The notes under the pieces: generated by a model
What the model was told of the DNA's origin: nothing
Seen by the model: the letters and a program-made list of their open reading frames with translations, nothing else
The model's database searches: none
Translations under genes and position numbers: made by a program
Shown here: piece by piece, positions 7,182 to 55,959 of the stretch
Layout of the letters: each line of letters starts with the position of its first letter
Numbering within the stretch: position 1 is the stretch's first letter
NCBI RefSeq assembly: GCF_029203305.1
Contig: NC_089462.1
Location: 1,612,001 to 1,676,000 of the forward strand
Source of the DNA: Yamadazyma tenuis
Taxonomy: Eukaryota > Ascomycota > Pichiomycetes > Serinales > Debaryomycetaceae
Direction of reading: 5' to 3'
DNA: 64,000 bases

Positions 7182-9881
7182 CTAACCCACTAAAACCGGC
7201 ACTTCAGTAGTAACCACGTTATCAGCAAACTCGTTACGTTCTCCACTACCCCCTTTAAACTTTACCACAACTTGCAAGCAGTATAATCGCCCAAATAAAC
7301 AGCTTTGGAACGTTGGAATGAGGGCAATATTGTGCTTGTTGAGGATGTCTAGTGGGATGCGTAAGTCTTTAGTCCACTTGTTGGTACCTGTAAGTTTCCA
7401 GTTATCGGCGAAAATTTCAGGGTGGGAAGTTTCGGAAATTGGCAGAAAAAATTCGGTGATGGTATCACGTTTAATCCCTAATGTCTTCATGGATTTCAAG
7501 TAAAGGTAAGAATTTTTTGAAATAAACGTCTTATTAGCCTTGAGGAAATGAATATAATTGGCCGTTTGGTCTTTAACCTGCTGGAGGTTCTGTTTGGTGA
7601 TTTCCACTTGGTCCACCTTTTTTGTCGAGGGATGCAAGGATTCATAGAAAAAGTCGTATTCAAACTCGCACGGTAAAGGGTAATCTGCCTTGAATGACCA
7701 TGCAACTATGTTACAATCGATATTAGCAATGGGTGGAGGAGTACACCCAGAATCCAAACCTTCGAATACCACCGAAACTTTAACGTCCTTTGCGTAATCA
7801 TCTTCTATTCTGCGGTATAATTCATTGATCCGGTTGCTGCTTATGCTGTTAACAGGTACAAGTTCATTGGACTTAAGACTATAATCATCCGTGAGGTTAT
7901 ACCGTTTTATCAACTTAGGAGACTCATATGTCACGGGCTGGTCAGGAACCTGAACGTACATCTTCAGGTGACCGACCTTCACTAGTGAGGACAATATCTT
8001 CTTCTTCTTCTTGCTAAACACATCGACTGGGTATCGACTTCCTATCATTCGTTTCTCACAATAATATGCTTCCTCGTCCACTTGTTGCAGTTGGAGTTGT
8101 TGTTCCTTGGCAACGATTGAAGTTTGTCTAATATTGGTGTTATTGTAATTGTCAATGATGAGGTTTTTATGTTTGATATCATCGTCCGAGAGTTGTTCTC
8201 TTTCGAGACGAGCATCGATTTCTTGCTCAATTAGCGAGTTGAGGCTATTAAGTTCCCTCCAAGTCTTGGTATAAATATAGTTGTTGAACAATTTACCATC
8301 GATACCAACGCTCCCAAAGGTCTCATTTCCAAAGATGATGTCCTCATTGAAATATGAAATAAGCTCTTTCAAGTCGGGAATGAACCGCAAAAAATACTGG
8401 GCTCCTCGTGAAACCACATAGTCTTTCATATTGTCAGACTCATTGATTTCGTTGTGACTAACGGGAACTTCTTGGGAGCTGTTCACCTTGTCAATAAACT
8501 TTGCTTCAATTGTGTACGAAACACTCATGTCGTGAAACCCATGATCTCTTGTAAGTAAAGGTGTTCCCCTGTCGGGAATAAACCCGTACCCCAAAGCTTT
8601 ATTCAATTCGATATGGCTAGCTTTCCCATTGAACGAGGTACTATCGACCCCTACTGATGGTGGAGAAAGAATGTGTGGAAGAATGCTGGAAGAACAGGTG
8701 GTATCGAGTAGACGGTTGGGAAATTTGAAAGTAAAGAACTTCTTGTATTTTTGTCCAGGAACAAGGATTCTCTCATTTGGCAATCCAAGAATGCAGTCGT
8801 CATATAAGTCTCTTGAACCTGGTTTATACTCAATCCCAGCACTGTTGGGAACATCTGTATATCCATATGATGCATTCAAATCATACATCTTTAAAAACTT
8901 TTTCATCAACACCTTGGAGAACAGGTTGTGATGGTCGGAGTTGGTTTTCTTTTCCACAGCCTTGGTGGTCCCTTCTAATGACACTGTAAATAGCCCAAAA
9001 CTCACAGGTTTGCTCGAAGTATTGTGGATAACAATATACCCATTGACCAAATCTCCGTTAGTATACTCTTTGAGTCTTGTTTCTAGCTCATTTTGCATAT
9101 GGGGTTCAGGGACTCCTTTAGTTAAAAAAACCTGGATATCAATGGGCGAAGTATTAAGTTTCGGCAACCGGTCGATGTTATCCAACACAGTGTGCCCGTA
9201 TGTGTTATTGGCGTTGGTGATGTTGTTCCTACTGTAGTACTCTCTGTTAGAGTTCTGGAGCCCATCATCTGCTTCGTCTTCACCGAATCCATAGTTTTCT
9301 TCGAAATTATACTCCTGTTCTTGCAGGGTCTCAGGACGTAACATCCCATCGATAGTCTCGTGCTGCTCAGTACCAGGGGTGCTTGAAGCACTACTCATTG
9401 GAGATAAGTTTGGGGGTGAAGGAGAAGTGTTTCTGGTATCACCATACTCTGGTGGTAGGATCAGTAAGTTCTCGTTGAACTGCTCATCATCTCGTTTCAA
9501 TATCGACTGGAACATCTGAAACGACGGTAACACATCAAAGTATTCAGTGTGAGTGTTGGAAGATACAGTTGAGATGGAAGTGACGTTAGATGATCCGAGC
9601 TTATCGATATGACTTTGCTGTTCTGGAGCTGGTCTGTACGGAACATTCTTTTTCTTCTTGGGTTTCTCATTGAGAGAGAGTAACGATGTGCCACGTAAGA
9701 TACTGGAACTGCTTTGCAGACTAATCGGTGGTGGTCCTGTTGATGTGGACAGGGATGAGCTCATGGAGAGATCATACGAAGGAGGATCCTCTGACGGCGT
9801 GCCGAGATTGTTGTTAGTATTGGAGGAGTGTAAATCATCGTCGTGTTCCAGACGTGATGACCTGCGGGTGTTGAACCGCAT
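7182..9881 (-). CDS. BUL1: Rsp5-binding arrestin-like adaptor Bul1/Bul2
   Basis: An 899-residue protein with a low-complexity Ser-rich N-terminus containing a PPSY motif at residues 33-36, the PY signature that docks on the WW domains of the ubiquitin ligase Rsp5. It is followed by the Bul1 N- and C-terminal arrestin-like regions (for example HNTSSKPVSFGLFTVSLEG and the C-terminal GRLYCLQVVVKFKGG). Bul proteins direct Rsp5 to plasma-membrane permeases for nitrogen-regulated endocytosis. Paralogues BUL1/BUL2 come from the S. cerevisiae genome duplication; a single gene is expected outside that lineage, so the symbol is by convention. Start is the only suitable ATG. Confidence 0.88.
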   Translation of the reverse strand: MRFNTRRSSRLEHDDDLHSSNTNNNLGTPSEDPPSYDLSMSSSLSTSTGPPPISLQSSSSILRGTSLLSLNEKPKKKKNVPYRPAPEQQSHIDKLGSSNVTSISTVSSNTHTEYFDVLPSFQMFQSILKRDDEQFNENLLILPPEYGDTRNTSPSPPNLSPMSSASSTPGTEQHETIDGMLRPETLQEQEYNFEENYGFGEDEADDGLQNSNREYYSRNNITNANNTYGHTVLDNIDRLPKLNTSPIDIQVFLTKGVPEPHMQNELETRLKEYTNGDLVNGYIVIHNTSSKPVSFGLFTVSLEGTTKAVEKKTNSDHHNLFSKVLMKKFLKMYDLNASYGYTDVPNSAGIEYKPGSRDLYDDCILGLPNERILVPGQKYKKFFTFKFPNRLLDTTCSSSILPHILSPPSVGVDSTSFNGKASHIELNKALGYGFIPDRGTPLLTRDHGFHDMSVSYTIEAKFIDKVNSSQEVPVSHNEINESDNMKDYVVSRGAQYFLRFIPDLKELISYFNEDIIFGNETFGSVGIDGKLFNNYIYTKTWRELNSLNSLIEQEIDARLEREQLSDDDIKHKNLIIDNYNNTNIRQTSIVAKEQQLQLQQVDEEAYYCEKRMIGSRYPVDVFSKKKKKILSSLVKVGHLKMYVQVPDQPVTYESPKLIKRYNLTDDYSLKSNELVPVNSISSNRINELYRRIEDDYAKDVKVSVVFEGLDSGCTPPPIANIDCNIVAWSFKADYPLPCEFEYDFFYESLHPSTKKVDQVEITKQNLQQVKDQTANYIHFLKANKTFISKNSYLYLKSMKTLGIKRDTITEFFLPISETSHPEIFADNWKLTGTNKWTKDLRIPLDILNKHNIALIPTFQSCLFGRLYCLQVVVKFKGGSGERNEFADNVVTTEVPVLVG

Positions 9882-10104
9882 TTTGACGTAGGAATGGTCT
9901 TTTTTACCTTAAAAAAGCGATGGTTTTGTGCGTATTAAAATACTGCAAATGCGAATGTGGGCCCTTAATTTGAATACGCCGTACAGTAATAAAATTGTAT
10001 TATATACCTAAATAATACTACGCCATTATTTTTAGTTGATATTTATCAATCCACGAGAATACGGTAATATCTTTAGTCATGTTAGTAAAGCTTTTGGAGT
10101 TATG

Positions 10105-10228
10105 CACCTAGAATCTCAGGGACCACGGCCGGTCAAGGCCTAAATTTATCATCAAGGTAAGGAAATTACAAGTCTCCAAACACAGTAGACCGTCGTGAAT
10201 TGTGGTAAGATCATCATATACGTAGGTG
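10105..10228 (-). ncRNA. box C/D snoRNA, guide to 25S peptidyl-transferase region (snR69-like site)
   Basis: Within intron 10243-10071: stem CACCTA/TAGGTG (10228-10223 with 10110-10105), a perfect C box ATGATGA, a C'-like TGATGA, and a D box CTGA. The upstream guide TTCACGACGGTCTA is complementary to 25S UAGACCGUCGUGA and is followed by CTGT, a degenerate D' box. The fifth base selects a C of GACC, which I place at or next to C2948, the snR69 site. By cluster order it occupies the place of snR73, whose known target lies about ten bases further along the same rRNA segment, so the assignment between the two is open. Confidence 0.72.
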
Positions 10229-10308
10229 AACAAATTAATACATACCGTTTGGTAGAAACAATTATCTCGAGGTACAATCCAGTACGTTCCAGTATCTAAA
10301 ATATTCGA

Positions 10309-10389
10309 AGCTAAACTATCAGACTGAAAATGTATCTTCTTGCAGAATCAGACATATGCTTGTCAATTTTCGAAAATCATCTTTTAGCT
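10309..10389 (-). ncRNA. SNR74: box C/D snoRNA, snR74-like (18S Am28)
   Basis: Terminal stem AGCTAAA (10389-10383) with TTTAGCT (10315-10309), a C-like box AGATGA, an internal D' CTGA directly after the guide, and a D box CTGA next to the closing stem. The guide GACAAGCATATG is complementary to 18S CAUAUGCUUGUC. The fifth base before D' pairs with A28, the residue modified by snR74 in S. cerevisiae. It lies between the fourth and fifth recognisable introns. A weak donor GTATTC (10402-10397) and a TTTTAG acceptor ending at 10296 could define its own intron, or the fourth intron may extend further and carry two snoRNAs. Confidence 0.87.
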
Positions 10390-10463
10390 GAGCATCGAAT
10401 ACTTTCTATAGCAAAAAATATAGACTAAAGCTGTTGTTAGTTTTGTGTTTTGCAACCATATTT

Positions 10464-10555
10464 TGATCTCAGTAAGGCATGAATGGTATAAATAAGTGTT
10501 TATCAGCATCGGATTACCCGTATCTGACTCGTCATCGTGGCATCATCAGTGATCA
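10464..10555 (-). ncRNA. box C/D snoRNA in fourth host intron, target uncertain
   Basis: Inside the intron opening at 10572: stem TGATC/GATCA (10555-10551 with 10468-10464), C box TGATGA (10548-10543), D' box CTGA (10506-10503) and D box CTGA (10472-10469). The D guide is complementary over ten bases to GCATGAATGG of 25S rRNA (GACGCGCAUGAAUGGAUUAACGAG), beginning exactly at the fifth base from the D box, which would select the G of GCAUG. I recall no S. cerevisiae methylation there. The D' guide matches nothing I recall. By order it occupies the snR75 place, but the known snR75 site does not fit. Confidence 0.7.
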
Positions 10556-10646
10556 GTTTTTGTGGTACATACTTGTATTGGTCCTCCTTTAGTGCGCAAT
10601 TAACGCTGGACTGTCAAAAGGTTAGTTTTGTCGACATTAAAAATAA

Positions 10647-10739
10647 ATTTATCAGTCACGGAGGGTTTCTGAGGCCCACCTTAAATGCGTTGTCACTCAT
10701 GCAATTTCAGTGCCCAGTGCAATAATTCGTCATCTAAAT
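10647..10739 (-). ncRNA. box C/D snoRNA in third host intron, target uncertain
   Basis: Inside intron 10759-10611: short stem ATTTA/TAAAT (10739-10735 with 10651-10647), a C-like box AGATGA overlapping the stem end, D' box CTGA (10710-10707) and D box CTGA (10655-10652). The ten bases next to D' are complementary to TGCCCAGTGC, which occurs in 25S rRNA (CUGCCCAGUGCUCUG, near the U2347 region). The D'+5 rule would select the last C of GCCC, a position I do not know to be methylated in S. cerevisiae. Family assignment is open; by cluster order it occupies the snR76 place. Confidence 0.65.
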
Positions 10740-10797
10740 CCTGTGACTAGGGTACATACACTTATACGGTTAGTAAAAACTATCAATAATATTGATC

Positions 10798-10899
10798 TTG
10801 TGTGAGTTGGATCAGAGATAAATGCAAAACGTTTTCAATCACAGAGATTCAGCAGGTAATTCCAGCTTTGTTTGTTGGTTTCATCAGAAAATCACACAA
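10798..10899 (-). ncRNA. SNR77: box C/D snoRNA, snR77-like (18S Um578)
   Basis: A textbook C/D RNA: terminal stem TTGTGTGA (10899-10892) with TCACACAA (10805-10798), C box TGATGA (10886-10881), D' box CTGA (10852-10849) and D box CTGA (10815-10812). The guide before D' is complementary over 13 nt to the conserved 18S sequence GGUAAUUCCAGCU. Counting five bases from D' selects the U of GGUAA, which is U578 in S. cerevisiae numbering, the residue modified by snR77. It sits alone in intron 10920-10761, so it is probably released from a debranched intron. Confidence 0.88.
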
Positions 10900-10966
10900 T
10901 AAAGTTGTAGGATAACATACGGTTAGCTTCCAGTTGTTAGTATAGGATAACAAAACATTTAACATG

Positions 10967-11064
10967 AGGGAGATTCACAATCAGCAACTAATTAAGATCA
11001 TTCGATAGTCATATACTCTAGTTTGAATTGGTTGGTTGGATCATCTTCTATGGATCGTCTCCCT
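10967..11064 (-). ncRNA. candidate box C/D snoRNA in first host intron
   Basis: Within intron 11084-10927 there is a C-like box AGATGA (11046-11041), a D box CTGA (10984-10981) and a 7-bp outer stem AGGGAGA/TCTCCCT (11058-11064 with 10967-10973). The stem is several bases away from the boxes, weaker than in its neighbours. The sequence before the D box (CTTAATTAGTTG) matches no rRNA segment I recall, so no target is proposed. Position alone would fit snR78 of the S. cerevisiae cluster, but the guide does not match that site. Confidence 0.45.
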
Positions 11065-11204
11065 ATGTGTTTATAGTAACATACTTTTCCCAAACTATGT
11101 TTGGAGAAGAGCTTACACTGAAAAAATTTTCCACGCGAAAATGTTTCATTTAAGGTGGTGTTGGCGCCGGGTAACCATAGGCCCTATACACATATAAAGT
11201 GATT

Positions 11205-12584
11205 TTACTTTTTAGGAGAGCTGGACGTGGCAGGTGGAGGGGGCATCATCATTTGTGGCATCATCATAGGGAAAGGAGGCATTCCAGGCATAAATGGCAT
11301 GCTAAATGGAGGCATCATCTGCCCTGGCTGGAACCCCAAATTCTGTCGTTTTTGAGCATCCTCATCTCCTTCAGTTTCATTACTTCTCTTTAAAGCATTG
11401 TCCATAGCAGCAGATGGATCCTCAATACCCAATTCAGCTGTTTTAGCTTCTATATAAGCCTTCAATTCTTGCTCCAACTCTTCGTTTGGCTTCAAAACAT
11501 CGATAAATACATCTTCTGTGTCGCAGTTGGGACAGTGGAAATCATTATCGATCAAAAGCTGTTCGAGGTCGTTTTTATTGTAATTGAAGTTCGTCATTTT
11601 CTGTAGCTTGGCTTTATCTCGGCAGCAGGGGGTCATAACAATGGGAGGGGTAAGTATTTTTTTGCCGGAGAGTGCCAAAGGATCCAAGAATTCAGTCTTA
11701 CCATCCTTCTCTATATGCTCTATGATCTTATCGTCAAACTCCTTTTTGGCTTTCATGACAGCATTCTGTTGTTTTTCCTGGTAACTCAACCACGTCTTCG
11801 TATCGGCCATGGCTATCACATACTCACCAGTATCAGTTATCATATAACGGTTACCTTGGTTGTCTACCATTTCTCCATTGTCATCGGTTGTAAATTGGGA
11901 AGTGTCATCAATGGCATCCTTGGAAACAGTCTTCAAATACGACCTGGGGATACCCGTTGTTTTCCGCAACTTCTTTCCCTCATAGTTGGGGTCCGTGTTT
12001 GTCGGACAGTTCTTGATCCAGTGGTCTCTGCCCCCACATCGGTAACACACGTATCCTGGTGGAGGAGCGTCTTCTGGATTAGCAGCAGCAGCAGCCGTGG
12101 GCTTGCTGTATATGACTTTGTGTTGGGCCAATTCGTCCTGGGTTTGGGCCCATGCACTTGATTGGTTTTCAAACATCAACTTGATTCGGTCTTCTTCCGA
12201 GATATTGTCGTCAATTGGTTGTTGAATTGTAGCGTTGGAGTTGGCTGCTGCTTGGGAATTGGAAGCATTGATGGCTTTACGGTTAATACGTGGTCTGCCG
12301 CTCACATAACGAGAAGCGTTACCGAATTTTCCGGCACGTGGGTTTGCAGGTGCCCTTCTGGCGTATACAAACGATGACCTGGGTATCACATCTTGATCCT
12401 GGTCATACTCGATATCTGGCTGCTCCAGGTGGAATAGCTTCAAATCAAAGTCATTCCCCTCGCCCAACTGGTTTTGCTTGATGATCTCATGTTTGAGATC
12501 AAACACATTGATCCCTGTCCCGTCGAAGTGGATCGTGGACTGGCTTTTCTGGTGAAAAAACTTATAGAAGATGGTGGATGACAT
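11205..12584 (-). CDS. MPE1: cleavage and polyadenylation factor subunit Mpe1
   Basis: A 459-residue protein with an N-terminal DWNN ubiquitin-like domain (from MSSTIFYKFF; SQSTIHFDGTGINVFDLK), a CCHC zinc knuckle near the middle (CYRCGGRDHWIKNC), a Cys-rich RING/U-box-like segment (MTPCCRDKA ... FHCPNCDTEDVF) and a Met/Pro-rich tail. Mpe1 is an essential component of the CPF complex acting at mRNA 3' ends. The frame extends 45 codons upstream of 12584, but the DWNN domain begins at this ATG, so I use it. It is divergent from NUP120 with only 90 bp between start codons, and adjacent to it in S. cerevisiae apart from TOA2. Confidence 0.93.
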   Translation of the reverse strand: MSSTIFYKFFHQKSQSTIHFDGTGINVFDLKHEIIKQNQLGEGNDFDLKLFHLEQPDIEYDQDQDVIPRSSFVYARRAPANPRAGKFGNASRYVSGRPRINRKAINASNSQAAANSNATIQQPIDDNISEEDRIKLMFENQSSAWAQTQDELAQHKVIYSKPTAAAAANPEDAPPPGYVCYRCGGRDHWIKNCPTNTDPNYEGKKLRKTTGIPRSYLKTVSKDAIDDTSQFTTDDNGEMVDNQGNRYMITDTGEYVIAMADTKTWLSYQEKQQNAVMKAKKEFDDKIIEHIEKDGKTEFLDPLALSGKKILTPPIVMTPCCRDKAKLQKMTNFNYNKNDLEQLLIDNDFHCPNCDTEDVFIDVLKPNEELEQELKAYIEAKTAELGIEDPSAAMDNALKRSNETEGDEDAQKRQNLGFQPGQMMPPFSMPFMPGMPPFPMMMPQMMMPPPPATSSSPKK

Positions 12585-55637: not shown

Positions 55638-55959
55638 ATGTCTGAAGTTTCCAGTAACAGCAGCATCAAGACCGATCCGTCGACGTTCTTGAGCGGTATC
55701 ATTGGGTCCAAGGTGAGCGTCAAGCTCAATAACGGCGTTTCCTACGTGGGAAACTTGCAGAGCATCGATGGCTTCATGAACATTGTAATGGACACCACCG
55801 CCGAATTTATAGGAGGTGCCGCCAGTGGCACCAAGTACGGCGATGTGTTCATCAGAGGTAATAACGGTATGTGTTCCCTGACGTTTCTAGGACCTTTAGG
55901 GTTTTTTTTCGATTTTTTTATACTAACAGCCACCAGTTTTATACATCAGTAAAGTATGA
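55638..55959 (+). CDS. LSM6: U6 snRNA-associated Sm-like protein Lsm6 (one intron)
   Basis: Exons 55638-55866 and 55937-55959 give 83 residues. The intron (70 nt) has donor GTATGT at 55867, branch TACTAAC at 55921-55927 and acceptor CAG at 55936. Splicing joins GNN to VLYISKV, restoring the C-terminal Sm2 motif; without it the frame runs into intron sequence. The Sm1 motif SIDGFMNIVMD identifies Lsm6 rather than SmF. Lsm6 serves in the Lsm1-7 decay and Lsm2-8 U6 rings. Confidence 0.92.
55867..55936 (+). other. LSM6 spliceosomal intron
   Basis: A 70-nt intron with GTATGT donor, TACTAAC branch point (55921-55927) and CAG acceptor nine bases after it, in phase 1 within the last conserved strand of Lsm6. 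Confidence 0.9.

Follow-up and report, generated by a model that had tools for sequence, protein, structure and literature searches.

A cluster I-like box C/D snoRNA locus with five predicted introns, and snR74 outside them, between BUL1 and MPE1 of a CTG-clade yeast

Studies have shown that snoRNA clusters occur in nearly all fungi analysed, and that in some hemiascomycetes their members lie mostly in individual introns (PMC3596301). Cluster I is composed of snR78, snR77, snR76, snR75, snR74, snR73 and snR72, in this order (Luo et al. 2013, PMC3596301). In S. cerevisiae and its close relatives, cluster I is unspliced, which has been ascribed, after Mitrovich et al. 2010, to the decay of splice signals (PMC3596301). 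In Candida-clade yeasts, an intronic cluster I with small exons has been described, and the cluster of S. cerevisiae is regarded as the derived form (PMC3596301, PMC5033589). Intronic forms have also been published for filamentous fungi (PMC2780460, PMC3596301); for example, cluster I of Neurospora crassa has intronic snoRNAs and alternative splicing (PMC2780460). In the C. parapsilosis group, cluster I mixes exonic and intronic members and shows exon skipping (PMC5033589). The splicing of homologous clusters has been published from EST, RT-PCR and RNA-seq data (PMC3596301, PMC5033589), and the loss of snR72 has been reported in several species (PMC3596301, PMC5033589), including its loss from cluster I in some Candida-clade species (PMC5033589). 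C. tenuis is named a single time in PMC5033589, as a CTG-clade species that degrades xylose.

In this study, a 64-kb stretch of DNA (the window) was analysed, and the assembly to which it belongs was scanned genome-wide (8 contigs, 10.86 Mb). In the database record of TAP42 from the window, all three of three CTG codons are read as serine, and its best named relatives are [Candida] jaroonii, Scheffersomyces amazonensis and Candida viswanathii, at 54%, 43% and 42%, respectively (metagenomic relatives reach 65%); these relatives and the reading of CTG as serine place the host yeast in the CTG clade. The snoRNA cluster occupies the minus strand from 11084 to 10071, in the 1323-nt gap between BUL1 (9881-7182, minus strand; Pfam Bul1_N and Bul1_C) and MPE1 (12719-11205, minus strand; Pfam DWNN domain). 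The 120 nt from the MPE1 stop to the first donor (11085-11204, minus strand) would hold the first exon and either the MPE1 3' UTR or a promoter of the cluster's own. We believe, with a probability of about 0.92, that the locus represents cluster I, the polycistronic C/D snoRNA cluster conserved in fungi, apparently without snR72, carried on one minus-strand transcript that would be spliced at five introns and would leave snR74 exonic. The sequence itself shows which snoRNAs are present and in what order, where the splice motifs lie, and that snR74 falls outside every donor/branch pair. From the published homologous clusters we infer expression and processing here, that is, transcription, splicing, lariat processing and methylation.

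The window was compared with 4227 Rfam families, with the gathering score as the cut-off. Five matches exceeded it, all in the cluster and all on the minus strand, with whole-window E-values of 1.2e-18 to 1.9e-5. These are snR77 (10810-10891, 18S Um578 guide; RF01181, 57.6 bits, cut-off 50), snR76 (10648-10738, 25S Cm2197 guide; RF01209, 87.4 bits, cut-off 55, the single match reported genome-wide for this family), snR75 (10467-10551, 25S Gm2288 guide; RF01185, 64.3 bits, cut-off 40), snR74, or SNORD27 (10315-10388, 18S Am28 guide; RF00086, 57.9 bits, cut-off 52), and snR73 (10114-10221, 25S Cm2959 guide; RF01207, 51.8 bits, cut-off 37). U27 (SNORD27) is given as yeast snR74 in a table of PMC2780460. 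Upstream of snR77, on the same strand, a snR78-like element with a 25S Um2421 guide (10979-11051) scored below the threshold, reaching 29.5 bits where 48 are required; in a permissive search its E-value was 0.037 for a 1331-base stretch and 1.8 for the 64-kb window. Its guide is CAAACTAGAGT, with A as the fifth nucleotide upstream of the D'-like box ATGA. The element lies in the right place, carries the right guide and has strongly paired flanks, so that reading it as snR78 is sensible despite the sub-threshold score.

In all six snoRNAs, the fifth nucleotide before the D'-like box complements the type of the listed modified base, the targets being those of the S. cerevisiae list in a table of PMC8307265. 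The pairs in snR78, snR77, snR76, snR75, snR74 and snR73 are A-Um2421, A-Um578, G-Cm2197, C-Gm2288, T-Am28 and G-Cm2959, respectively. The D'-like box differs from CTGA in snR75 (CAGA), snR73 (CTGT) and snR78 (ATGA). Guide pairing was judged by the Rfam consensus, the target bases given in that list and the rRNA of S. cerevisiae instead of the host's own rRNA, because the assembly yielded no rDNA (0 matches for an 18S 5' pattern and 0 for the 5.8S family); the rDNA may be missing from the assembly. The six RNAs follow one another on one strand as snR78-77-76-75-74-73, which is the fungal cluster I order, with snR78 below threshold but right in guide and position. A preliminary description of this DNA had proposed six C/D elements, named two of them snR77 and snR74 in the order known from S. 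cerevisiae, and claimed that both obey the D+5 rule. Six elements were indeed found, both names were right, the rule holds by base type in all six, and the full published order is kept apart from snR72; snR78, snR76, snR75 and snR73 had escaped naming.

The minus strand of 9881-11210 carries five GTATGT donors and five TACTAAC/AACTAAC branch sites, which alternate strictly as the donor/branch pairs 11084/10942, 10920/10775, 10759/10627, 10572/10442 and 10245/10087. The plus strand of the same interval has no GTATGT and no NACTAAC. In 5000 dinucleotide shuffles of 9990-11150, with a pair defined as a neighbouring donor and branch site 40-250 nt apart, the averages were 0.38 donors and 0.34 branch sites, and no shuffle reached five of either. 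At least one pair was formed in 94 of the 5000 shuffles, two in one and three in none, against the five pairs observed. The scan of both strands thus upholds the perfect alternation claimed in the preliminary description, and the shuffle means uphold its estimate of fewer than one of each signal by chance; its central claim, a snoRNA cluster with spliceosomal intron signals between BUL1 and MPE1, stands on the Pfam neighbours, the Rfam matches and the motif scan. Applied to all 64 kb of the window, this definition of a pair yields five on the minus strand, all in the cluster, and one on the plus strand. The plus-strand pair (55867-55927, +), with CAG nine nt after it, probably marks a short intron of the usual kind.

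Across the genome, 49 matches to GTATGT-N35..65-TACTAAC were counted, compared with 14 to the reversed control; of the 49 short matches, 30 were inspected, and in 27 of these YAG follows the branch site at 7-14 nt. This enrichment and these acceptors indicate that the two words are the intron signals of the host yeast. Longer gaps are enriched too: N105..135 occurs 32 times versus 16, and N136..166 occurs 22 times versus 5 (three of the 22 belong to this cluster). Seven other Rfam snoRNAs, namely snR71, snR79, snR55, snR61, snR56, snR40 and snR54, sit inside such pairs.

Exon and intron bounds were predicted from the splice signals, taking the nearest usable AG, and all lie on the minus strand. 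Predicted intron 1 (10927-11084, 158 nt) hosts snR78, with its donor at 11084, TACTAAC at 10942-10936 and the acceptor AAG ending at 10927. Predicted intron 2 (10761-10920, 160 nt; donor 10920, TACTAAC 10775-10769, AAG ending at 10761) hosts snR77, and predicted intron 3 (10611-10759, 149 nt; donor 10759, AACTAAC 10627-10621, CAG ending at 10611) hosts snR76. Predicted intron 4 (10431-10572, 142 nt; donor 10572, AACTAAC 10442-10436, CAG ending at 10431 or TAG ending at 10425) hosts snR75, and predicted intron 5 (10071-10245, 175 nt; donor 10245, TACTAAC 10087-10081, AAG ending at 10071) hosts snR73. The predicted internal exons 2 (10921-10926), 3 (10760), 4 (10573-10610) and 5 (10246-10430) are 6, 1, 38 and 185 nt long, respectively, and exon 5 carries snR74. 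Small or absent internal exons are known more widely (PMC3596301), and other yeasts of the Candida clade have one-base exons in their clusters II and III (PMC5033589). In the same genome, cluster II (contig C7, about 471720-472180) has three GTATGT/TACTAAC introns separated by gaps of 1 and 4 nt; Rfam places snR55 and snR61 in the second and third introns, and the first, the presumed host of snR57, gave no Rfam match for snR57.

Within 5-20 nt of the branch site, YAG is absent in three of the five cluster introns, which have AAG only. AAG-only acceptors also occur in two (snR79 and snR40) of eight other snoRNA introns, seven of them defined by an Rfam match and one by position. The 30 short intron-like matches comprise, besides the 27 with YAG, none with AAG and three with neither, which are perhaps chance matches. 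AAG as against YAG was therefore found in 5 of 13 snoRNA introns versus 0 of 27 short matches (Fisher p 0.002), and with the unresolved short matches counted as non-YAG, YAG was found in 8 of 13 versus 27 of 30 (p 0.04), in a comparison of small samples that was picked after the data had been seen. Under the same rule, 20000 random positions gave YAG in 6666 cases (33%) and AAG in 4473, or either in 56%, and the chance that all five branch sites have YAG or AAG is 0.05. At this chance level the acceptors add little, and an AAG 8-10 nt from the branch site is weak evidence for a real acceptor.

The preliminary description had each RNA in an intron of its own, and this is contradicted by the cluster: there are six RNAs and five predicted introns. 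Five of the six snoRNAs lie inside a donor-branch pair, and snR74 (10388-10315) is the exception: it follows the branch site at 10442, precedes the donor at 10245 and hence lies outside every pair. Neither GTATG nor NACTAAY occurs in predicted exon 5 (10430-10246) around snR74, and one intron per RNA was rejected on this ground. Within the exon, GTATTC occurs upstream of snR74 (at 10402) and TACTGGA twice downstream (at 10294 and 10284); these words may be remnants of an intron that has been lost, or may be there by chance.

The flanks of snR74 form the best duplex of the six, with 22 pairs and -20.7 kcal/mol, which none of 500 mononucleotide shuffles equalled. The snR78 flanks follow with 16 pairs and -17.4 kcal/mol, again unequalled in 500 mononucleotide shuffles, and the duplexes of snR77 and snR75 reach -10.5 and -9.8 kcal/mol, with shuffle fractions of 0.020 and 0.016, respectively. 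Flank pairing of snR76 (0.536) and snR73 (0.284) was not above shuffles, and the 185-nt exon as a whole folds no better than expected (z -0.79; equalled by 45 of 200 shuffles), so that around snR74 the flank pairing alone stands out. The long terminal stem around the exonic snR74 would fit a splicing-free release, but snR78, which is intronic, also has a strong stem. A more speculative reading, which we regard as rather doubtful, is that the cluster is part-way through de-intronization: the splice signals of snR74 would be gone and its 22-bp stem would replace splicing for release, while in the snoRNA introns the acceptors would be deteriorating (AAG in 5 of 13, compared with 0 of 30 short matches, 27 with YAG) and would thus decay earlier than the donors and branch sites. 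Should related yeasts show the same acceptor bias and snR74 stem, this would hint at the sequence of steps by which introns are lost through signal decay.

Other explanations of the locus were considered. That the motifs arose by chance and no snoRNA gene exists draws on the sub-threshold score of snR78 and on nothing else; it is refuted by the shuffles and by Rfam E-values of such size in a known order, and its probability is practically nil. The introns might belong to the 3' UTR of MPE1 instead of an independent non-coding gene, as MPE1 is on the same strand and its stop lies only 120 nt before the first donor. The word TTACCCGG at 11174-11167, which we take to be a Reb1 site, lies between the genes and speaks against this, but weakly, because the window holds two such words and 22 of 100 shuffles hold as many. 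In Candida, a gene is known whose 3' UTR contains two introns with snoRNAs (PMC5033589), and even so we judge a 3' UTR origin unlikely.

It is also conceivable that the introns have largely decayed and that the RNAs are processed by endonuclease and exonuclease, with the splice motifs as relics, in the way that the S. cerevisiae cluster is processed exonically by Rnt1 and Rat1/Xrn1 (PMC5033589). The AAG-only acceptors in three of five introns, an acceptor set barely above chance and the lack of consensus splice signals around snR74 would agree with this. Neutral decay, however, would not preserve a full GTATGT in five of five introns and ACTAAC in five of five, and two other snoRNA introns of the genome are likewise AAG-only, so that we consider extensive decay very improbable. 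A further possibility modifies the spliced cluster I that we favour and does not oppose it: splicing might be nested, recursive or exon-skipping, so that the exons of 1 and 6 nt would never exist as separate exons, introns 1-3 would be removed in a set order or together, and snR74 might partly leave in a long 10572-10071 intron. Predicted introns only 1 nt and 6 nt apart point this way, as do the nested and recursive splicing of Candida cluster II, the exon skipping of cluster I (PMC5033589) and the possibly stepwise splicing in D. hansenii and Y. lipolytica (PMC3596301). Splicing round a one-base exon by the classic mechanism has also been described (PMC5033589), and we give this variant a serious chance, somewhat below even.

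For the favoured reading, we propose that one polymerase II transcript would either start in the 120 nt between the MPE1 stop and the first donor or arise by read-through from MPE1, and would be spliced at five introns. The debranched lariats would be trimmed by exonucleases to snR78, snR77, snR76, snR75 and snR73, and snR74 would be cut or trimmed from the largest internal exon with no splicing step dedicated to it; its long terminal stem may aid this release. The six RNAs would guide 2'-O-methylation of 18S A28 and U578 and of 25S C2197, G2288, U2421 and C2959.

The closest published relatives are the CTG-clade clusters I of C. parapsilosis, C. orthopsilosis, L. elongisporus and C. albicans, which have the same RNAs, the GTATGT/TACTAAC signals and an intronic/exonic mix in one non-coding transcript; in some species, snR72 is missing from the cluster (PMC5033589). 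The acceptors in the species of that source are TAG or CAG, whereas three of five are AAG here, and its branch sites are TACTAAC except for one GACTAAC, whereas two of five are AACTAAC here. S. cerevisiae cluster I has the same RNAs and order, and snR74 is exonic there as it is predicted to be here; there, however, all members are exonic and unspliced and snR72 is present, while here five are predicted to be intronic and snR72 was not found. In N. crassa and other filamentous fungi, cluster I is intronic in a UHG-like non-coding host gene (PMC2780460, PMC3596301), and snR74 is listed as intronic in N. crassa (PMC2780460) and would be exonic here. The contrast that the preliminary description drew, with intronic snoRNAs here and exonic ones in S. 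cerevisiae, is thus already known, and the intronic state is read as ancestral. With this locus, a further CTG-clade genome joins those in which the move of the cluster from introns to exons has been documented; unless the acceptor bias and the snR74 stem hold in relatives, it is routine annotation.

As for snR72, no Rfam match was found in the 64-kb window, and a pattern for the snR72 guide had five matches genome-wide, none with an upstream C box or GTATGT within 400 nt. Fusion of its guide into the snR78 element was rejected, by eye only, as the stretch upstream of box D is not complementary to the 25S A876 region, which we take to be the snR72 target. In N. crassa, by contrast, a single fused RNA carries the guides of both snR72 and snR78 (PMC2780460). 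Six further intron-like pairs of snoRNA-host length occur in the genome without an Rfam match at the gathering score, and four of the six contain the word TGATGA; these may be diverged or unannotated snoRNAs, perhaps including snR72.
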